A DNA stretch of 44,474 nt, taken from positions 1 through 44,474 of IMG/VR virus record IMGVR_UViG_3300042691_026441, one strand, 5' to 3'. Under the pieces are notes generated by a model. It made no database searches and had not been told where the DNA came from. It saw nothing but the letters and a program-made list of their open reading frames with translations. The translations under genes were made by a program, and so were the position numbers. Shown here piece by piece: positions 24,642-35,860 of this stretch. Numbering within the stretch: the stretch's first letter is position 1; each line of letters begins with the position of its first letter. Origin of the DNA: a virus.

Positions 24642-25127
24642 ATGAGCAGCACGCGCATCACCCTTGCGGTCCACCACACCGCCGGCGGCCACACCACGTC
24701 ATTCGGTTCGCGGGATCACCCCAGCGAGTACGTGTCGTCGGTTGTCGGCGTCTCCAACTCCGACGTGTTCATCTGTCCATCCGGATCATTGCAGACGCTC
24801 TACCAGTATGCGGACTCGAACCCCGGGATCTCCGCGCTCGTGGTGACAGCCGACCAGGACGGAACGCTTTGGTTGCAGGGCGCCACGGCCAACGGGGCAA
24901 ACCCGACGTGGAACGCGGTGCCGATGCGGGCGAACATGCCCGCGTGCATCTCGGCGGAGTCGTTGCCGACGAACGTTGACCCGTCCGCGCACGCCACCGA
25001 CGCCGGCGGCGTCCCTTCCGGCGCGATTTCAATCAATGAGACAACGGGCGTGCTCTACAAAGCCGTCTTTCAACCCGCTAGCGCTGTCAACACCCCCACC
25101 ACCATCAAAACCTTCCGGTGCAACTGA
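24642..25127 (+). CDS. Hypothetical virion protein
   Basis: A 161-residue protein with AAGGAG before ATG 24642. It is beta-rich (RITLAVHHTAGGHTTSFG, then SALVVTADQDGTLWLQG) and ends TPTTIKTFRCN. The repeated small strands and the Asp/Gly turns suggest a compact sandwich. The stop TGA overlaps the start of the giant gene as TGATG, so the two are translationally coupled. Confidence 0.6.
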   Translation: MSSTRITLAVHHTAGGHTTSFGSRDHPSEYVSSVVGVSNSDVFICPSGSLQTLYQYADSNPGISALVVTADQDGTLWLQGATANGANPTWNAVPMRANMPACISAESLPTNVDPSAHATDAGGVPSGAISINETTGVLYKAVFQPASAVNTPTTIKTFRCN

Positions 25128-28100
25128 TGAACCCAAACGATCCATTTGAGGCGTCCGTCACGCGCGGCTCGCTCGCCGGCGTTGGAATGCCGATCGAGGC
25201 CACACCGCCCCCCGTCGCCGCGCCGGTCGATCCGTTCGAGGCCGCCGAAATGCGTTGGGTCGCTGCGCGCCCGGCGGTCGCGGGTGATCTGAAACGCCAG
25301 CGCGAGGAGCTGATGCGCCCGTCGGGGTCGCTCAAGAACGCCGACGGCACCTACGGCGCTCCGTCTATGCCCGCGCCGCCTCCGTGGTGGGGGCTGACGC
25401 CCAAGACGGGTCTCACCGCCACGAAGGTCACGAAGGAAGACGTGGACTCGAAGATGTACGGCTACACCGCCGACGACATCGGAGCGCCCGCCGAACGCGA
25501 TTCCGCCGGCGTGATCCGCCGGAAGTACAACCCGATCACGGGCGCGTGGGCGGAATGGGGAGACAAGGGTGGGTACGGGTGGCACGAAGACAATGCGATC
25601 GGGTACAGGCCCGATCTGGACCCGCGCGAGAAGGTTGGCTTCTTTGGCGAGTTGACCGACGTGGGCAAAGCGTTCTCCGCAACGTCGCTCGGTTCGGCGA
25701 TCGCGCTGCGCGGCGGACAGCCGACCCCGGAAGAGGCGGCGTATCAGGCGTTCAATGCGCCGCCCCAAACCGGACCCGGAAAGGTTGCCGCGATCGTCCG
25801 CGATTCGGCGGCGTTCGCCACCGACTTTGTGCTCACCGGGAGCGCCCAGCGGGCGCTGAGCACCCCCGCACGCGCGGCGGCGCGGTCGTTTGCGGAAAAG
25901 GTGCTGGGCGCGGGTGGACAGCTCGGCAAGGTCGGAAGGCTCACCGAGGCGGCGGCGGAGATGGGCGCGCGCGGGATTGCGGTTGCACCGACGGGCATTC
26001 CCGCCGGCATCAAGGACGCGGTTGAGATCGCGGCGGTGAGCGACGCGCCGTTCATGGAGTCGCTTTACAAGGGCATGGGTGGGCAGTTCATCGAACGGTT
26101 CAGTGAGTTCTCCGGCGGTGTCGTCGCCCGCGGAGCCGGGATGCTCGTTCCCGAGAAACTCAGGTTGCTCAAAGCCGCGATTGCGCAGAAGTGGATGAGT
26201 AAGTCGCCCGGCGTGCGGACCATCAGCAACTTCGCCGAACAGGTGGCGAAAGTCGGCGGTTGGGATGGGATCTTGGGCGAAATCGGTGAGGAGTATGTGG
26301 GCGGGGTTATGAAGGATCTTGCCCAGATCGAAGATTTCCGCGGGTTCTCAAACGAAGAGATCATGCAGATGGCGGCGGCGTTCGCCATTCCCGGCGGTGT
26401 CGTCAAGACCGCTCAGGGCGGGATGGCCGCCACCGACGCCGTGCGCGCGTTCATGCAACGCCGGGCTCAGGCCCAGGGCGCTGACGCGGCGGTGACGGGC
26501 GAGCCCGTTTTACAAACACCCCCGGGAACGGATGCGCCTTTACAGGCCGCTCCAGTCGAGCAGCAGGCTCCGGAGGTTGTGGCGGAAGTGTCGCCAGTGC
26601 CCGCGGCTGAGGTGATGCCGCACCCCACCGCCACACAGACGGCGCCCGTGCCAGCGCAACAGGCCGCACCAGTGCAGGCGGACCCCATCGCCGAACAGGC
26701 GGCGCCAGCGAAATCGAAACATCGCCCGGGTGATCGGGTCATTGTGAACACCGAGGACGGCCCCGTTCAGGCGACGGTTCGTTTTGATCCGAAAGCCGCC
26801 CCGAACGCCGTCACGGTCAAGACCGACGCCGGCGAGATCATCACCGCGAGCCTTGACGACGTGGAGGGTTGGGCGAGCACCAAAATCGACGAAGCCGAAG
26901 CTGTCGGTGTCGCAGAAAACATGCAGGCCGACGCGGCAACAGGCGAGCAGGTTGTCGCCAGTGGCGGGAACGTGATGAAGGTGGACACGTCCACGGGCGA
27001 TGCAACGCCCGTTGCCGACGTAGAGATCCGGGCGGCAAAGGAAAAGAAGGCGAAGAACAAGCGCCCGTATCAGACAGTTGACGTGCCAATCACTCCCGAG
27101 CGCGCAGCGGTCATTCGACAGGTGAAAGAGGCCGTCGGCAACCGTGAAAAGATCCAAGCGGTGTTGGGTGACAAAACCGATGCCTATTTCAAGCGAATGG
27201 CCGGGGGCGAGCAGTCGGCCAACGCGGTAATCCGGGTAATGGGGTGGGACAATGAAGCAGGTGCGCCAGCGCCCACCGCGCAATCAGCACCCGCAACGTT
27301 CAAAGAAGGCGATCGCGTACAAAAAATCGTCAATGGCAAGACCCTCACCGGGACGGTGCAAGGAGTTGATTCGGTCAACGGTGATCTCACGGTCAAAGTT
27401 GACCAGATTCTCAAGGCTGGCGGAGTGCCGATCGGTCGGATTGAGTATTGGCCAAACCGAGAAGTTCAATCCGCCGACGCCAGTTCAAAGGACGTGGGCG
27501 GAAAAGCATCCACCAGTGATTCCGCACCATCACCAACCACCGCCAACCAACCCACCGCAGTTCCGCCCGCCGCTCCCAAGCGGTCTCGGTTTTTGAAGAA
27601 CCTGACTCCGGAAGAAATGGCGTCGTTCGACGACGCAAAGGCCCGCTTCACCAAAGCCGCCGGCGGATCGACTCTGAGCGCCGGGCTCAACACCGACGCG
27701 CTCACCGCCGCGGTTCAGATGGGGTATTTGGTCGCGAAATCCGGCATCCGGTCGTTCCAGAAATGGGCGGCGGTGATGCACGAAGAGCTTGGCGACGTGG
27801 GCAAAACGTACCTGCGCGAAGCATGGGCTGCGGTGCGCGCTAACCGCGACATGCGAACGTACGCCAAATCCGGGGAAATGGTGGATTCTGAGACCGTCGC
27901 GGACATGGCCGACGAAGAGCTTGACCGCCTTATCATTCAGGGACGCGGGGAGTTGGAGAACGACGATGCAAGCCAACCCAATGACGCCGTGGCAGACGCG
28001 GGCGCTTCAGGCGCTGGAGTTCGCGAGCGAGGGCCGACAGAGCAGGCAGAGCCTCGTGAATCAGGCGATGACGCTGGGGGACGAAGCGGCGGTAATGTGG

Positions 28101-31100
28101 GCGGAGCTGGTGCATCAGGGGACGACGCCCGAACAGGCGCAGGAGCTGGTGACGGCAATGCTGATCGACGCGACCGAGAAGCGGGCAAATCCCGACGCGG
28201 ACGGCGGGCAGCAGCAGGAGATGAACGGGACGGTGGGGGAGATGCTCGCGAAACTCCCGCCCAAGAGCAGCGACAGCACGACGCCAAGGCGCTCGACACC
28301 GCCGACCATGTGATCGAGAACCCCGACACGCTGGCGATGGGCTCGCCCAAAGCCAAGTACGCGGCGAACATGAAGGCGCTGGAAACCTATCGGCGGATCC
28401 AGGCCGAAGGGCGCACGCACGCAACCCCCGAAGAGAAGCGGATCCTGTCTCAGTGGGTCGGCTGGGGCATGTTCCCCCAGGTGTTCAACCGCGACTCGGC
28501 GTGGTCCGTTGAGGCTGAGGCGTTGGCCCAGGCGTTGTCCCGCGACGAGATGTACGAGGCGAGGAACAGCACCAAGAACGCGCATTACACCAGCGCGCCG
28601 ATGGTGCAGGCCATGTACGACATGGTGCGCCGGCTCGGCTTTGAGGCTGGGCGGGTTCTCGAACCGTCGATGGGGATCGGAAACTTCTTTGGGCTGATGC
28701 CGGCGGACATGGCCGCCAAGTCCAAGCGCGTGGGTATCGAGCTTGAGCCCATCACCGGCGGCATGGCCAAGCTGATCTACCCGGCGTCGGTCGTGCGTGT
28801 GGCCGGCTTTCAGGACGTTCGCCTTCCGCCGGATTTCTTCGATCTGGTCATCGGCAACGTCCCGTTCTCGTCCACCACGATCTACGACCCCGAGTACAAA
28901 TCCCTCACGCTCAACACCCACGATTACTTCATCGTGCGGTCGCTGGACAAGGTTCGCCAGGGCGGGCTTGTGGCGCTCATCACCAGCACGGGCACGCTCG
29001 ACAAGGCCGGCGCTCAGGGCTCCCGCGCGCGCGAAGCGATGGCAAACCGCGCGTCTTTGGTTGCCGCGTTCCGACTCCCGGGCGGTGCATTTGAGGCCAA
29101 CGCCGGCACGCAGGTTGTGACGGATCTGCTGATCTTCCAGAAACACACGTGGGTGAACGGGGCTCGGAAGGAGAACCCGCACGCGCAGGCGTTCCAAGAG
29201 GTCGTGACGGTTCCGGACCCGGACGGTGGCGAACCGATCCCGGTGAACGAGTATTTCAAGGCCCACCCCGAGCACATCATCGGGCGGCTCGACCGCACCG
29301 GGACCATGTACCGTGCGGGGTCAAAGAACGTCTCCGTCACGGGCGATTGGCGTGAAATGCTCGCCGAGCAGGTGAAGAAGTTGCCAGCGGGGATTGCCGC
29401 CAAGGAAGCCCAGCCCGACGTGGATGTTGAGGGCGCCATGGTTGAAGACCGTGCGGGCAAGGAGGGCGGGTTGTCCGTTGACGACGGAAAGCTTTTCCGT
29501 CGGGTGAACGGGGCCATGGTTCGCGTGCAGGCAGACAAGCCGACCATCGATCGCGTGAAGGCCCTGCTGACGGTGCGGGACGCGGCACGCGAGTTGGTGC
29601 AGGCCGAAGCCCGAGACGCCGACGTGGCGGTGCTGGACGATCTCCGGCAGAAGCTCAACCGCGCGTACGACCGGGCCACGAGCAAGCACGGCAAGCTGCG
29701 CAGCCGCCCAATGCTCCGGGCGATCGCCGATGACCCGGACGCGATGTTTGTCGCGTCGCTCGAAACCGACACCATGGAGAAGGCGGCGATCTTCACCAAG
29801 CGGACCATCCGCGGGACGAAGATCCCCGAATCGGTCGGTTCAGCCGTCGATGCCATGGTCGTTTCGTTGAACGAGAAGGGATCGGTAGATATCCCGTTCA
29901 TGGTGGGGCTGACCAAAACCACCGCCGCCAAGGTGGAAGAAGAGTTGCGGGCATCGGGCCAGGCGTTTGAAGACCCTTCGGAGGGCTGGCAATCCCGCGA
30001 GCGGTATCTTTCGGGCAACGTTCGGGCGAAGCTCGTGCAGGCGGAGGCCGCCGCGGCGATCGATGAACGGTACATGCGCAACGTGGAGGCGTTGAAGGCG
30101 GTTCAGCCACCGGACAAGACCGCCGATCAGATCGATGTTCAGCTTGGATCGGCGTGGGTTCCCCCCGACACGTACGCGGAGTTTTATGCCGGCGCCCTTG
30201 GTGGTTCGCCGGATCACGTTATGGTGTCGTTCAAGCCGTCCACGGGCAGTTTCCTGTTCCAGTTCACCCCGCGCGGGGAGCGGCTTGCGCGGTCACAAAC
30301 CGCAAAACTGCTGTCAACCGACCGGGTTGAGTTTGCCAAGATTGCCGAAGCGGGCATGAACCGTCAGACCATCAAGGTGTTCGACAAGATGGCCGACGGC
30401 TCCTCGGTTCTCAACACCATCGCCACGGGCGAAGCGGCTGGCAAGGTGCAGGAGCTACGCGAGAAGTTCACCGATTGGGTGTGGAACGACGACACCCGCC
30501 GGCAACGGCTCACGCGCATCTACAACGACCAGTTCAACTCAGTCGCTCCACCGTCCGCCGACGGGTCGAATCTGACGCTCCCGGGCATGTCCCCCGAAGT
30601 GACATTGCGCGACCATCAGAAGAACGCCGTGCGGCGGATCATCAACGAACGGCGTGCTGGGCTTTTCCACGAGGTCGGGACGGGCAAGACGTACACGATG
30701 ATCGCGGCGGCGATGGAGGTTCGCCGGCTGGGTATCGCTAAGAAGCCGACCATCACGTGTTTGCTTTCCACCGCCCCGGACTTTGTTCGAGACATCTACC
30801 ACCTGTACCCGGGTGCGAGACTGCTGAATGTGGCCGCCGCCACTGATGCCGACTCCCGGCGAAGGCTGATCGCGCAGGCCGCCACCGGCGATTACGACTT
30901 GATCCTGATGACCCACGAGCAGATCGGCGGGATCACGTGCTCCCCCGAAACCGAGGTGGAGTACATCCAAGACCAGATCGAGGAAGCTGAGGCCGCGATC
31001 GAGCAGGCCCGGCAGGCCGACCGCGCCGCCGGGTTGTCGAAGTCTTCCGATTCGCGGTTCGTCAAACAGCTCGCCAAGCGGCTCGACCAGTTACGTGAGC

Positions 31101-34100
31101 GCGGGCGTGAGCTGCTGGACAAGAAGGCAATCAAAGCGGACGACCAGATTTATTTCGAGGACACCGGGATCGATTTTCTCTTCATCGACGAAGCCCAGGC
31201 GTTCAAGAACCTGCCGGTTCAATCGGCCCTGAACGTGAAGGGGATTGCGCGCAGCGACACCGGACGCGCGGCGGACATGATGATGAAGATCCGCCACATC
31301 GGCAAGCTCCAGAAGGGCCGTGGCGTCGTGCCGGCGACGGGCACGCCGATTTCAAACACCATCGGCGAAACCTTTGTGATGATGAAGATGATGGCCGAGG
31401 CCGATCTTCACGCGCGGAACATCGGTGCCTTCGACGCGTGGGTGTCCACGTTCGGGCACATCTCCGATCAGGTCGAGTACACCATCGATCTCCGACAGGC
31501 TCCGACGCAGCGACTGCGCGACTTTGTGAACATCGGCGAGTTGCAAACCCTGTTCCGTGACACGGCGGACGTGGTGTTTGCTGATGACATCGGGCTCAAG
31601 CGGCCAAAGAAGGTCAACTACGTTGAAACGATCGAGATGACGCCCGATCAGGAGGACTACCGCGAGCAGCTCCGGGCTCTGGCCGCCGAAATCCGGGCGC
31701 GAAGGGGTCCGCCCAAGAAGGGTGATCTCCCGATTACGATCGTCGGCCAGCGGGGCGCCGCATCGTCGATCGATATGCGGCTGGTCGATCCGACCGCCGA
31801 CGCCGAATCCGGGTCGAAGATTCCCTATCTGGTGGCGAACATCCGGAAGTATCTCGACGCCCACCCGGGCACAACGCAGATGATTTTTACGGAGGTGCGC
31901 ACGCTCGAATCCCTGAACCCGGCGTTCAATCTGGTGGACGAGATTGTGAACCAGCTTGAAAAGGCTGGCGTGCCCCGGGACAAGATCATCGACTTCTCAA
32001 ACCTGACGAAGACCGAGCGGCGGGATGCCGCGCGACGGCTGAACAACGGGGACGCGTGGATCGGCATCGGGTCTACCAAAACCCTTGGCACGGGCGTGAA
32101 CGCGCAGAAGAACCTGATTGCCTTGCACCATCTCGACGTGACGTACACGCCGGCAGAGATGGAACAGCGGGAAGGCCGCGGGTACCGCCAGGGCAACATG
32201 AACCCCACCGGTGAGATCAACATTCATCGGTATGTGACCACGGGGTCGTTTGACGTGTTCCGATGGGGCATCGTGGACCGGAAGTACCGCTTCATCCAGC
32301 GGTTCATGCGCGGGCAATCCGTCGCCGGCACGATGAGGGAGGAAGACGGCGAGGATCTGACGCCCGAGCAGGTGGCGGCGATGGCCACGGGGGATCCGAA
32401 GCAGCTTGAGCTGCTGAACGTTGCGTATGAGGTCGAGAAGCTGGAAACCCAGCGCCGGCGTGCCGCGATGGACGCGGCCCGGGTTCGAGATTCCATCGGC
32501 TCGCTCGAAAAGACCATCACGCATCTTGAAAGCCAGTTGGCCGCCACGGAAGCCGAGCGCGTTGAGCTGGCCGAGTTCACCGCCAAGCCGTTCGAGGTCA
32601 AGATCGGCTCGACGCTCGCGACGACTTCCGAGCAGGTGTACGCCGCCGTCAACGCCGCGTTCCCGCTCGCCAACTACACCGACACCGGCAAAGAGATCGG
32701 TTCGATGCACGGGCTCCGTGTGCGGCTGGGCTTGGTTGCCAGCGGCGATGTGGTCAACCTGACAATCGACGGCCCGAAGGGGGTCGGATACTCGGTGTCG
32801 CTGCGCACCACGTCGGTGGAGATGAACGACGGCAAGATGGTGAAGACCGTCCATCCGAACATGCAGGCGTCACTTCGAGCCGTCATGGGAACGGCCGCGC
32901 TCGAACGGGCGGTTGAGACGACCAAGGCAACGCTCGAATCCGCACGCGCCGACTTGGCCAAGGCCAAGACCATGGTGTCGTCCGGGTTCAAGCGGGATGC
33001 CGAGCTTGAGGAGAAGCGAGCCCGCCGCGAAGTGCTCCGTAAGGAGGTCGAGGCGAATCAGGCCGCCGACGACGCTCGACGCGCGGAACAGAAGCAGGCC
33101 CGGGATCTGCTGTGGTCGATGGATGATGCCGAGTTCGCAAAGCTCGCCAGCGAGCGCGGTGTCATGCAGGAGAAGACAACCCGCAACGTGGGTCGGCTGT
33201 TGAGGGCGATCGGTCAATCCGAGGTGATCCGCATGTTCGCGGATCAGATCGCCAAAGCCAAGGCGGCGCAGGAGTTCAAGGAGGCTACAGACCCGACCAA
33301 GTTGTCGGCGGGGCTCAACGCCGACGCCGCGATCGCTGCGGCCAAGTTCGCGTTCTATTGGGCGAAGCCCCACGTGCGGCGCGCCGCCGCGATGGCGTAC
33401 GCCGCCGGCAAAGCGCTTGTGAACATCCCTCGGGCGGCAAAGCTGATGATGCTGAGCCTGACCGGGAAGATCCGCAACGAGGACGGCTCGGTCGCGGTCG
33501 ATCTGGCGGGGATGTACGGCGACGCCGCCGGCAAGGCTCTGCCCCGCATCACCGCTATGGACGCGGCATCGAGCGAGGCCGGCGTTCGGTACGTCAGCGC
33601 CCCGGACGCGGCGGTGTTGCAGGGCGACGTGTACGCCGACTCGGTGATCGGGGATCACACACCCGAAGACGTGGAGCTTGCGGGCGCGGTTCTGACCGAG
33701 GACAACCTTCGCTCGGTGCGCAAGCAGCACGAGGCCATGGCGGCGGAATACACCGCGCGGGGAGAGCAGGAAGCCGCCGACGCCGCCGCCGAATCCGCCA
33801 AGGCGGTCTATTCGCTTGTGGGCGACGGTCGGTATTTCGAGACCGAGGAGGAATATCAGGCCGCGCTCAGGCATCCCGGTGTGGTGGACATCATCAACCG
33901 GTTCATCGACTCATTCTCGCCCGTGATGGACGAGCTCTACAAGAAGGCCAGCGGGATCCCGCTTGACGACGATCTTCCCTCGCGCGGGGAGCAGACCGGT
34001 TGCCGGATCAACCTGAAAGCCAACCGCCCCGAGCAGACCGCCAAGCCGATCGGGATGGCCAACGACCAGACGCGTCCGTTCGTGCGGAAAAGCTCGTTCA

Positions 34101-35860
34101 ACCGCCGGGCGACGGGTGCGGCGAGCCTTGGCTACGACATCGATCTCCGCGAGATCATCAAGAACAGCGTGGTGAAGCAGTTGGAGATCGCCACTCAGCG
34201 AGAGTGGTACGCCACCATGGAGGCGGCGGGCATCGCCAAGATCGCCCCGATGGGCTCGGAGGTGATGCTGCGCGGGGTAGTGGTTCCGCCCGGGTCCGCC
34301 GTGGACATTCAGTACCGGACGCTGGTGATCTCTAAGAACGGGGAGGCCAAAGTCATCCCCCAGAACAACCGGCTGTACCTGCATCCGGCGATTGCCGGCG
34401 AAGTGAAGGCGGCGCTCCGGAAACAGATCGTGGACGTGCGGGGCGCAAAGAGCGTGCTCGTGGGGGCGATCGAGGCGGCGAACATGGCCGCGCTGGTCGG
34501 GCCGGCGGACGCGACGACGCACGCAATGAACGTCGCCACCGTGCTGTTCACGAGGCCCGGCGTTGGACGAGGGCCGATGGGGCGGACGTTGCACATGCTC
34601 GGGGGCGTGCCGGCGATTCTGGCGGCGCTCGATCAACTTCTCGCCAAGGGCATGAAACACTGGTTCGGCAACCGCGAAACCAAACAGCGACACGCGTATC
34701 TCGTGTCGATCGGTGCCATGCGGGTGGAAGCGCACGACAACCCCAGCGAGCGCGAGGGCCTGTGGGCGAAGGTGCTCGACAAGGTGCTCAACATGGGTTG
34801 GTTGCAGCGTCGGCTGGACCCGGTAGCCCGGCTGGTGCTCGACGACGCGTTCACCGAGTTGGTGAAGAAAGGCTTGGTGATCGACTCTGAGACCAACCGA
34901 CGCGAGTTTATCAACCAAGTGGGCCAGTACAACAAGCGGTTGCAATGGATGCTCCCCCGCATCCTGCGAGAGACGGGCGTTGCCCCGTTCATCACCGCCG
35001 GCAAGACGATGCGGAATCTGGCGATCCGGAATCTGGCGATGGCCCCGGGCGCAACCGCCACGAGCCAACTCGCCGCCGCAAAGCTCCGGTTGTCGATCGT
35101 GTCCAGGTGGGTGGGCACCCTTGGCAGCATCGCCATGCTCAACGTGATGCTTGCCGCGCCCGACGACGACCGGCCCGTCTGGGAGAAGGCGGTTGGCCCC
35201 AAGGGCGCAGCACCGGGAACGGTCATGCTCTACACCGATGAGCGCGGTCGCCCCGTCACGATCGATCTTTTGGAGTTGGTGGGCTACCGGCGTGCCGCGC
35301 GAACCGTGGGGCTCGATCAGGCGATCAAGAGCTACATGTTCGGTCTTTCGCCCGGCCAGACCTTTGACCGGGCCGCGAATCAGGCGATCACGTCGGCGAT
35401 CGTGCATCCGATCTCCGGGCCCCCGATCCGCGCCGGGCTCGCCATGCTGTACGGCATCGACCCGTCCGGGTACCCGGTTGCCGCCAAGGCCCGGCCCGGG
35501 GAATCGCAGGTGTGGGAAAATCTCAAGGCAGCGCTCGTGCAGTCGAACCAAGCTACCAAGATCATCTTCTCGGAGGGCGGGAGCGACGTGTCCGTGTTCG
35601 AGGCCGCCGCACAGAACCTTGTGCCCAGGCTTGTGCCAAAGACCGGGCGGACGGAACGGCAAACCGACACTCTTGCCAAGCGACTCACCGCGTTTCAGGT
35701 CAACGAGTTTGCGGACGATCTGGCGAGCAGGCTCAAGAAACTCCCGCGTGAGGATCGGGTGGCGGCGCTGAACAAGGCGCTCGAAGGCATGGACCTCATG
35801 CACGCTGCTAAAGTACGGCGCATCGTGATGTTCAAGAAGCGTGTGATGGCCGCGGAATAG
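25127..35860 (+). CDS. Giant polyvalent protein: N6-adenine methyltransferase + SNF2-like helicase + virion-type segments
   Basis: A 3,577-residue protein; ATG 25127 overlaps the previous stop. Residues 1-450 are virion-like, with DPFEA at 5 and 35. Residues 450-532 are Pro/Ala/Gln-rich. Small beta (SH3/KOW-like) segments lie near 532 and 726. About 850 starts LSAGLNTDA, a helical module also found at 2726. Residues 947-1062 are low-complexity and overprinted. The methyltransferase spans about 1150-1350: motif I EPSMGIGNFFG near 1179, motif IV VIGNVPF near 1242. The helicase has GTGKT near 1851, FIDEAQAF near 2019, ATGTPISNT near 2070, QREGRGYRQGN near 2347. Coiled coil 2435-2720, then a long C-terminal region. 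It resembles DarB of phage P1 and other polyvalent proteins, injected to block restriction. Being next to ejection genes fits injection. Confidence 0.9.
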   Translation: MNPNDPFEASVTRGSLAGVGMPIEATPPPVAAPVDPFEAAEMRWVAARPAVAGDLKRQREELMRPSGSLKNADGTYGAPSMPAPPPWWGLTPKTGLTATKVTKEDVDSKMYGYTADDIGAPAERDSAGVIRRKYNPITGAWAEWGDKGGYGWHEDNAIGYRPDLDPREKVGFFGELTDVGKAFSATSLGSAIALRGGQPTPEEAAYQAFNAPPQTGPGKVAAIVRDSAAFATDFVLTGSAQRALSTPARAAARSFAEKVLGAGGQLGKVGRLTEAAAEMGARGIAVAPTGIPAGIKDAVEIAAVSDAPFMESLYKGMGGQFIERFSEFSGGVVARGAGMLVPEKLRLLKAAIAQKWMSKSPGVRTISNFAEQVAKVGGWDGILGEIGEEYVGGVMKDLAQIEDFRGFSNEEIMQMAAAFAIPGGVVKTAQGGMAATDAVRAFMQRRAQAQGADAAVTGEPVLQTPPGTDAPLQAAPVEQQAPEVVAEVSPVPAAEVMPHPTATQTAPVPAQQAAPVQADPIAEQAAPAKSKHRPGDRVIVNTEDGPVQATVRFDPKAAPNAVTVKTDAGEIITASLDDVEGWASTKIDEAEAVGVAENMQADAATGEQVVASGGNVMKVDTSTGDATPVADVEIRAAKEKKAKNKRPYQTVDVPITPERAAVIRQVKEAVGNREKIQAVLGDKTDAYFKRMAGGEQSANAVIRVMGWDNEAGAPAPTAQSAPATFKEGDRVQKIVNGKTLTGTVQGVDSVNGDLTVKVDQILKAGGVPIGRIEYWPNREVQSADASSKDVGGKASTSDSAPSPTTANQPTAVPPAAPKRSRFLKNLTPEEMASFDDAKARFTKAAGGSTLSAGLNTDALTAAVQMGYLVAKSGIRSFQKWAAVMHEELGDVGKTYLREAWAAVRANRDMRTYAKSGEMVDSETVADMADEELDRLIIQGRGELENDDASQPNDAVADAGASGAGVRERGPTEQAEPRESGDDAGGRSGGNVGGAGASGDDARTGAGAGDGNADRRDREAGKSRRGRRAAAGDERDGGGDARETPAQEQRQHDAKALDTADHVIENPDTLAMGSPKAKYAANMKALETYRRIQAEGRTHATPEEKRILSQWVGWGMFPQVFNRDSAWSVEAEALAQALSRDEMYEARNSTKNAHYTSAPMVQAMYDMVRRLGFEAGRVLEPSMGIGNFFGLMPADMAAKSKRVGIELEPITGGMAKLIYPASVVRVAGFQDVRLPPDFFDLVIGNVPFSSTTIYDPEYKSLTLNTHDYFIVRSLDKVRQGGLVALITSTGTLDKAGAQGSRAREAMANRASLVAAFRLPGGAFEANAGTQVVTDLLIFQKHTWVNGARKENPHAQAFQEVVTVPDPDGGEPIPVNEYFKAHPEHIIGRLDRTGTMYRAGSKNVSVTGDWREMLAEQVKKLPAGIAAKEAQPDVDVEGAMVEDRAGKEGGLSVDDGKLFRRVNGAMVRVQADKPTIDRVKALLTVRDAARELVQAEARDADVAVLDDLRQKLNRAYDRATSKHGKLRSRPMLRAIADDPDAMFVASLETDTMEKAAIFTKRTIRGTKIPESVGSAVDAMVVSLNEKGSVDIPFMVGLTKTTAAKVEEELRASGQAFEDPSEGWQSRERYLSGNVRAKLVQAEAAAAIDERYMRNVEALKAVQPPDKTADQIDVQLGSAWVPPDTYAEFYAGALGGSPDHVMVSFKPSTGSFLFQFTPRGERLARSQTAKLLSTDRVEFAKIAEAGMNRQTIKVFDKMADGSSVLNTIATGEAAGKVQELREKFTDWVWNDDTRRQRLTRIYNDQFNSVAPPSADGSNLTLPGMSPEVTLRDHQKNAVRRIINERRAGLFHEVGTGKTYTMIAAAMEVRRLGIAKKPTITCLLSTAPDFVRDIYHLYPGARLLNVAAATDADSRRRLIAQAATGDYDLILMTHEQIGGITCSPETEVEYIQDQIEEAEAAIEQARQADRAAGLSKSSDSRFVKQLAKRLDQLRERGRELLDKKAIKADDQIYFEDTGIDFLFIDEAQAFKNLPVQSALNVKGIARSDTGRAADMMMKIRHIGKLQKGRGVVPATGTPISNTIGETFVMMKMMAEADLHARNIGAFDAWVSTFGHISDQVEYTIDLRQAPTQRLRDFVNIGELQTLFRDTADVVFADDIGLKRPKKVNYVETIEMTPDQEDYREQLRALAAEIRARRGPPKKGDLPITIVGQRGAASSIDMRLVDPTADAESGSKIPYLVANIRKYLDAHPGTTQMIFTEVRTLESLNPAFNLVDEIVNQLEKAGVPRDKIIDFSNLTKTERRDAARRLNNGDAWIGIGSTKTLGTGVNAQKNLIALHHLDVTYTPAEMEQREGRGYRQGNMNPTGEINIHRYVTTGSFDVFRWGIVDRKYRFIQRFMRGQSVAGTMREEDGEDLTPEQVAAMATGDPKQLELLNVAYEVEKLETQRRRAAMDAARVRDSIGSLEKTITHLESQLAATEAERVELAEFTAKPFEVKIGSTLATTSEQVYAAVNAAFPLANYTDTGKEIGSMHGLRVRLGLVASGDVVNLTIDGPKGVGYSVSLRTTSVEMNDGKMVKTVHPNMQASLRAVMGTAALERAVETTKATLESARADLAKAKTMVSSGFKRDAELEEKRARREVLRKEVEANQAADDARRAEQKQARDLLWSMDDAEFAKLASERGVMQEKTTRNVGRLLRAIGQSEVIRMFADQIAKAKAAQEFKEATDPTKLSAGLNADAAIAAAKFAFYWAKPHVRRAAAMAYAAGKALVNIPRAAKLMMLSLTGKIRNEDGSVAVDLAGMYGDAAGKALPRITAMDAASSEAGVRYVSAPDAAVLQGDVYADSVIGDHTPEDVELAGAVLTEDNLRSVRKQHEAMAAEYTARGEQEAADAAAESAKAVYSLVGDGRYFETEEEYQAALRHPGVVDIINRFIDSFSPVMDELYKKASGIPLDDDLPSRGEQTGCRINLKANRPEQTAKPIGMANDQTRPFVRKSSFNRRATGAASLGYDIDLREIIKNSVVKQLEIATQREWYATMEAAGIAKIAPMGSEVMLRGVVVPPGSAVDIQYRTLVISKNGEAKVIPQNNRLYLHPAIAGEVKAALRKQIVDVRGAKSVLVGAIEAANMAALVGPADATTHAMNVATVLFTRPGVGRGPMGRTLHMLGGVPAILAALDQLLAKGMKHWFGNRETKQRHAYLVSIGAMRVEAHDNPSEREGLWAKVLDKVLNMGWLQRRLDPVARLVLDDAFTELVKKGLVIDSETNRREFINQVGQYNKRLQWMLPRILRETGVAPFITAGKTMRNLAIRNLAMAPGATATSQLAAAKLRLSIVSRWVGTLGSIAMLNVMLAAPDDDRPVWEKAVGPKGAAPGTVMLYTDERGRPVTIDLLELVGYRRAARTVGLDQAIKSYMFGLSPGQTFDRAANQAITSAIVHPISGPPIRAGLAMLYGIDPSGYPVAAKARPGESQVWENLKAALVQSNQATKIIFSEGGSDVSVFEAAAQNLVPRLVPKTGRTERQTDTLAKRLTAFQVNEFADDLASRLKKLPREDRVAALNKALEGMDLMHAAKVRRIVMFKKRVMAAE
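27966..28313 (+). CDS. Overprinted gene inside the giant gene (+1 frame), helical protein
   Basis: A 115-residue frame lying wholly within the giant gene, shifted by +1. GGAG at 27955-27958 stands 7 nt before ATG 27966, an ideal ribosome binding site. The protein reads as a compact helical protein: MTPWQTRALQALEFASEG, then LGDEAAVMWAELVHQ, then TPEQAQELVTAMLIDA, then a polar tail. By my hand count about 87% of its third codon positions are G or C, as in the other genes here, whereas the giant frame over the same bases has about 47% and encodes a monotonous Gly, Ala, Asp, Arg stretch. So the selected frame here is the short one. It could be a structural or regulatory partner of the giant protein; no family is recognised. 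Confidence 0.7.
   Translation: MQANPMTPWQTRALQALEFASEGRQSRQSLVNQAMTLGDEAAVMWAELVHQGTTPEQAQELVTAMLIDATEKRANPDADGGQQQEMNGTVGEMLAKLPPKSSDSTTPRRSTPPTM

Follow-up and report, generated by a model that had tools for sequence, protein, structure and literature searches.

Polyvalent proteins with a methylase-helicase dyad, such as the DarB-like ones (phrog_10089), are believed to shield phage-borne DNA once it has been injected (Iyer et al. 2017, PMC5512222); the DarB-like protein of phage JC1 is a virion protein (PMC9144972). A complete shifted-frame gene with its own start inside another gene is exemplified by Rz1 within Rz, whose products are partners, and JC1 has the embedded class of Rz/Rz1 (PMC9144972). 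TnpV (PF14198) is filed as a transposon protein, and TnpV of Tn4451 has been postulated to act in excision on the basis of its resemblance to lambda Xis (PMC3158075). Here we analyze 44,474 nucleotides (nt) of viral DNA, positions 1 to 44,474 of IMG/VR record IMGVR_UViG_3300042691_026441 (the window), in which the sequence and that of its relatives indicate that positions 27966-28313 are very probably a real, separately translated gene, sharing its bases with the linker that precedes the methyltransferase of a giant DarB-like protein. Embedded genes, DarB-like proteins and TnpV are each already known. No report of TnpV-like genes nested in polyvalent genes was found in the open-licence literature, and neither overlap nor TnpV came up in a text search of PMC5512222.

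The host gene in the window shares the methylase-helicase dyad of DarB-like proteins, with an N6-adenine methyltransferase followed by an SNF2-type helicase in a protein of several thousand residues (Pfam and PHROGs matches). The nested arrangement resembles Rz1 within Rz and differs from it in three respects: Rz/Rz1 is a lysis pair, whereas the host gene here encodes a virion-type protein, is more than 10 kb long and has a linker that is free to vary, and the small gene has stand-alone homologues. TnpV and the nested family are of similar size and have a common P..Y..L...G.L core, and nested copies from Firmicutes exceed the Pfam cut-off for TnpV. Unlike a protein filed with transposons, however, the nested family sits inside or right after a methyltransferase-SNF2 gene. 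The small protein also constitutes the last 90-100 residues of phrog_938 "endolysin" and of orf33 of Sinorhizobium phage PBC5 (E down to 3e-25), so that the phrog_938 library profile carries it under a misleading label. In PBC5 (AF448724; locus L014:1-6309), orf33 runs without a change of frame from the upstream half of the giant into the small protein, and the methyltransferase has an open reading frame (ORF) of its own; this fusion probably arose from one indel, either in the record or in the phage.

Coding signature and start signal

The nested ORF is complete, has its own start signal, lies fully within the giant ORF and is in the +1 frame relative to it (Table 1); the bases preceding its start read ...GGGGAGTTGGAGAACGACG-ATG. 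The sequence-only reading, made before any database search, had described a 115-codon +1 frame preceded by GGAG 7 nt before the ATG, and this was borne out exactly. It had also estimated by hand a third-position G+C of about 87% in the nested frame vs. about 47% in the first 100 giant codons, for which recomputation gave 0.86 vs. 0.44. Over the whole overlap, G+C at codon positions 1/2/3 is 0.65/0.50/0.86 in the nested frame, the usual coding pattern, and 0.87/0.65/0.50 in the giant frame, where that pattern is displaced. The Gly/Ala/Asp/Arg linker that it had placed over these bases is likewise evident in the composition of the giant protein. A codon log-odds model, with the remainder of the window as its training set, scored the nested frame at +33.9 bits, the giant frame at –28.8 and the third frame at –108.7, and along the giant gene the +1 frame outscored the giant frame solely in windows starting at 27848-28028 (347 sliding windows).

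The nested gene in relatives

Unannotated +1 ORFs of 90-117 codons, each with an ATG and a Shine-Dalgarno site, lie directly before the methyltransferase in JC1, CSP3, VvAW1, Pavtok, 8P, USP_25, POI1126 and one IMG/VR contig, and unannotated +1 ORFs with these start features occupy the same place in Itty13, LASTA, SopranoGao, Atu_ph08, Mwe-JY07, PEp14 and Stean. The carriers are DarB-like genes of Burkholderia, Erwinia, Vibrio, Pseudomonas, Klebsiella, Agrobacterium, Ochrobactrum and Microcystis phages, together with gut Firmicutes elements. An alignment of ten of the nested proteins along their length has 21 invariant columns, although the hosts are as distant as Vibrio, Erwinia, Agrobacterium and Microcystis, and the giant residues over the nested gene form a low-complexity linker in the relatives as in the window. 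None of the phage records examined annotates the nested ORF as a separate gene. The gene table of a Monoglobus plasmid (NZ_OY725736; L122:3304-8337), which is incomplete, shows the reverse of the phage records, listing the nested TnpV and not the giant frame.

A scan with small-protein profiles recovered 92 loci (70 viral and 22 from bacterial genomes), in 87 of which the gene is nested in +1 within a larger ORF; the five exceptions (L098, L104, L105, L112 and L114) are taken up below. In a blind census, viral contigs were scanned with the methyltransferase alone and the best 80 loci were retained, so that the small protein was not used as a query; these loci include a few near-duplicates (e.g., L134/L135, L158/L163 and L167/L168) and overlap in part with the profile scan. 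Their 6,704 six-frame ORFs yielded 68 matches to the small-protein profiles (E<0.01), 67 of them in the +1 frame relative to the methyltransferase and one (L126) in its own frame past the stop of the giant; at this threshold there was no match in the +2 frame or on the minus strand of these ORFs. The small gene is upstream of the methyltransferase in 64 of the 80 loci, always in +1, and in 63 of the 80 it lies within about 650 nt of it, the distance being 2.1 kb in L147. It occupies the 3′ end of the giant in L126, L179 and L197, to which an iterated profile added L202, and at most of the remaining loci that profile has a sub-threshold best match at the same +1 place. A place before the methyltransferase is the layout of most phages. 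Firmicutes elements (L004 and L147) have the gene in an earlier linker of the giant, and in L126, L179, L197, L202 and the S. suis element L207 it either overlaps the giant's stop or follows it directly.

Beyond these loci, a genome scan with the window's methyltransferase returned no relative, and the plasmid collection contained no match to the proteobacterial branch of the small-protein family. Among 299 Pseudomonadota genomes the only carrier was the genome on which the sample had been centred, indicating that the small protein is not a common host gene.

Selection was examined on 17 pairs of related loci. The pooled ratio of nonsynonymous to synonymous polymorphism (pN/pS), a figure that describes the relatives' copies and not the window's own, was 0.24 for the nested gene and 0.15 for the adjoining methyltransferase, as against 1.74 for the giant frame where it overlaps the nested gene. 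Amino-acid conservation is thus seen in the small protein and is lacking in the linker, the opposite of the unconserved short frame and normal giant codon bias that the sequence-only reading had named as grounds for abandoning its proposal. When the nested genes were re-drawn synonymously, the giant frame was expected to be open in only 5.1 of 85 copies; the 85 had been picked as open, a choice that drops only a few non-nested loci, given the proportion nested in the profile scan. The third frame, for which no reader is expected, is open over the nested gene in 0 of 84 copies. The giant frame is therefore kept open over the nested gene, despite its unconserved residues.

The start signals were compared in 83 copies, taking as the nested start the ATG closest to the profile match and ignoring Shine-Dalgarno sites in the choice. 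The start is ATG in 82 copies and GTG in one. A Shine-Dalgarno core is present at 79 of the 83 starts vs. 11.5% of 7,789 other +1 ATGs in the same genes, and in 21 of the 83 a stop in the nested frame lies at most 30 nt before the ATG. Start codons, Shine-Dalgarno cores and upstream stops together favour independent initiation over frameshifting or indels.

Relationship to TnpV and layout of the host gene

Nested copies from Firmicutes match the Pfam TnpV model clearly (L004, E=7e-32, 110 bits; L005, E=9e-42, 142 bits; gathering cut-off, 27 bits), and a Fibrobacter locus found with the proteobacterial profile (L115) also passes, at 35.5 bits. Giant polyvalent ORFs with TnpV nested in +1 occur in L004, L005, L116 and L118-L123, among them Monoglobus and Cohnella plasmids. 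The proteobacterial-phage branch stays under the cut-off (best, 21.9 bits), hence the label TnpV-like. A first revision of the sequence-only interpretation is accordingly that the nested gene is not peculiar to this phage and belongs with a widespread TnpV-related family.

Assignment of the window copy itself relies on several lines of evidence. Used as a plain query, the window's small protein found nothing in viral contigs or phage records. An iterated profile hidden Markov model (HMM) picked the window copy from among all ORFs of the window (E of 0.001-0.003; 4528 sequences; best reversed decoy, E=1.4), the match being partial and covering 43 residues. The copy also shares the family's setting: the +1 frame, a linker directly before the methyltransferase, and an ATG with a Shine-Dalgarno site. 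Because the profile match, frame, place and start signal agree, the window gene is likely, though not certain, to be a divergent member of the TnpV-like family. AlphaFold predicts four to five helices for the core family (3-17, 19-27, 31-51 and 56-67; predicted local distance difference test score, pLDDT, of 79.5) and helices at 8-20, 26-37, 39-50 and 55-74 for the window copy (pLDDT 68.6), an order similar to that of the core as judged from the helix boundaries. Foldseek found no solved structure resembling the small protein, and its sole convincing viral match was Q8W6J4 (48% identical), which we take to be PBC5 orf33. A sequence search of the PDB gave no convincing match, the best being a designed helical repeat (E=0.009).

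In S. suis-type elements (L125:3930-4351, L197:7915-8333 and L207:9616-9893), snf2 has the TTTGCGGACA att site at its 3′ end, and the annotated TnpV starts just past this site, overlapping the stop of snf2. The transposon or transposase naming of TnpV may come from elements that insert at that site.

The giant ORF starts with GTG and comprises 3580 codons, or 3577 residues if counted from an in-frame ATG. It encodes, in order, an N-terminal part, the linker, an LPD36-like segment with the N6-adenine methyltransferase, the SNF2-type helicase and a C-terminal part. Elsewhere in this gene, at 27250-27540, there is a weak displaced codon signature in which third-position G+C drops and no frame clearly wins; a 114-codon +1 ORF is open at 27252-27596.

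Table 1. Coordinates of the nested gene and its host gene in the window
Feature	Position	Strand	Remarks
Giant DarB-like polyvalent gene hosting the nested gene	25118..35860	+	phrog_10089 DarB-like antirestriction, E=0; helicase and Eco57I-type methylase Pfam matches
Shine-Dalgarno-like GGAG	27955..27958	+	Ends 7 nt before the nested ATG
Giant-protein linker over the bases of the nested gene	27965..28309	+	67% G/A/D/R; codon signature displaced
Nested +1-frame gene, probable TnpV-like family, predicted helical	27966..28313	+	115 residues, ATG to TGA
Family-profile-matched part of the nested gene, AMTLGDEAAVMWAELVHQGTTPEQAQELVTAMLIDATEKRANP	28065..28193	+	Iterated HMM; residues 97-139 of the stop-to-stop ORF 27777-28310
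Beginning of the methyltransferase segment, giant frame; blind probe for relatives	28319..29599	+	

Alternative explanations and proposed role

Several observations weigh against a nested, TnpV-like partner gene in the window. Its protein matches no Pfam, PHROGs or NCBIfam family (a chance-level NCBIfam match aside), a first hhalign comparison with ten relatives was weak, with a 17-column match only, and the AlphaFold model of this copy is of middling confidence. The window has no close relative among the sequences searched, the best reaching about 43% identity in the methyltransferase, and the measured selection is that on the relatives' copies. The darB gene of P1 (L206:4231-9555) starts almost at the methyltransferase and has no N-terminal part, linker or nested gene, and the five exceptional homologues of the profile scan have no methyltransferase nearby; partnership is therefore not obligatory. 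One of these five, from Pseudidiomarina sediminum (L112:5974-6762), carries a long membrane-like C-terminal extension. Finally, when the giant is shuffled synonymously, the +1 frame at the window linker is still open in 86% of cases, so an open +1 frame of this length is unsurprising on its own. The case for the nested gene is instead made by its coding signature, its start signal and its conservation in relatives.

The same shuffles are what a chance origin would lead one to expect, since high G+C yields long open shifted frames that can mimic a coding signature. Such an origin is refuted for the family by the opposite pN/pS of the two frames over the same bases, by profile matches that are essentially confined to +1 and by the presence of the gene in Firmicutes hosts of lower G+C, and we regard it as exceedingly unlikely for the window. 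Two compensating indels, through sequencing error or recent mutation, could instead have shifted the giant's own sequence without creating a second gene, a possibility that the sequence-only reading had itself raised for sequencing indels. The shifted stretch does have clean borders, and in the old PBC5 record the nested ORF continues the frame of the upstream part. The two-frame layout recurs, however, in phages, prophages and plasmids that were sequenced independently, dozens in all; the stretch opens with an ATG and a Shine-Dalgarno site and closes with its own stop, and the copies with an in-frame stop shortly before the ATG do not allow the giant to read on. Compensating indels are thus refuted by the relatives and left with next to no probability. 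The PBC5 fusion in orf33 could also be read as a sign of programmed frameshifting, by which the small frame would provide an alternative C-terminus for the upstream half of the giant. This we consider very unlikely, given the near-universal ATG, the enrichment of Shine-Dalgarno cores over control ATGs, the many copies with a stop a few bases before the ATG, the existence of stand-alone homologues, and a PBC5 layout that fits a single indel. An independent gene overprinted with the linker before the methyltransferase, as first proposed, is strongly supported by the coding signature, the start signal and the relatives.

More serious is the possibility that the gene is real and merely a passenger, its overlap with the giant reflecting compaction and its product acting elsewhere, for example as an excisionase-like factor. 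The stand-alone members without a nearby methyltransferase and the excision role postulated for Tn4451 TnpV (PMC3158075) speak for such a passenger, whereas the association with methyltransferase-SNF2 genes persists in several layouts and several phyla, and in the integrated elements checked the 3′ end of snf2 holds the att site, with the "TnpV" immediately past it, an arrangement that makes its link to recombinases look incidental. On balance the passenger reading is credible, though not the one we would choose.

Genes that keep a neighbour while the layout changes are usually partners. The small gene stays with the methyltransferase-SNF2 gene in every layout, whether before the methyltransferase, in an earlier linker or at the stop codon, which is why a dedicated partner of the methyltransferase-SNF2 protein appears to be its most likely role, a proposal in which our confidence is about evenly divided. 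The start signal is observed, and we infer that the small protein would be translated from the giant's mRNA by internal initiation: ribosomes on the shared message would either continue in the giant frame or initiate at the internal Shine-Dalgarno site and ATG, giving a 115-residue helical protein. Selection would act on the amino acids of that protein, while the giant linker would need only to stay open, as is seen in the relatives. Such a partner might, for example, hold the methyltransferase-translocase in check in the producing cell, or keep it competent for virion loading, until injection. The assembly partner or inhibitor suggested by the sequence-only reading would be a plausible, if conjectural, form of this role.

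Stand-alone homologues and sequence conservation are both found for the small protein and neither is found for the linker over it; moreover, the methyltransferase-side ORF opens just 82 nt (L115) and 28 nt (L046) ahead of the small gene. This suggests that the small gene is older and that the linker is a younger reading of the shared bases. The existence of homologues as ordinary genes thus revises the sequence-only interpretation a second time, in that the linker, rather than its guest, may be the newcomer. We tentatively envisage, with somewhat less than even confidence, that the small gene came first and that an upstream gene and the methyltransferase-SNF2 gene were joined by read-through, the partner gene surviving out of frame in the new linker. 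The pair would then represent a two-protein module of phages, conjugative elements and plasmids in several phyla, of which the transposon "TnpV" would be a stranded half.

Long overlapping genes are a matter of debate in bacteria and phages, since few genomes underlie many of the examples. Here frame and position are conserved across phages of several phyla and Firmicutes elements, and selection on the hidden frame is clear, so this family can be used to test how overlapping genes are found and proved. The little-understood TnpV family gains a new context, as it travels with a methyltransferase-SNF2 protein, and the nested gene points to an overlooked component of a phage-borne protein against restriction.

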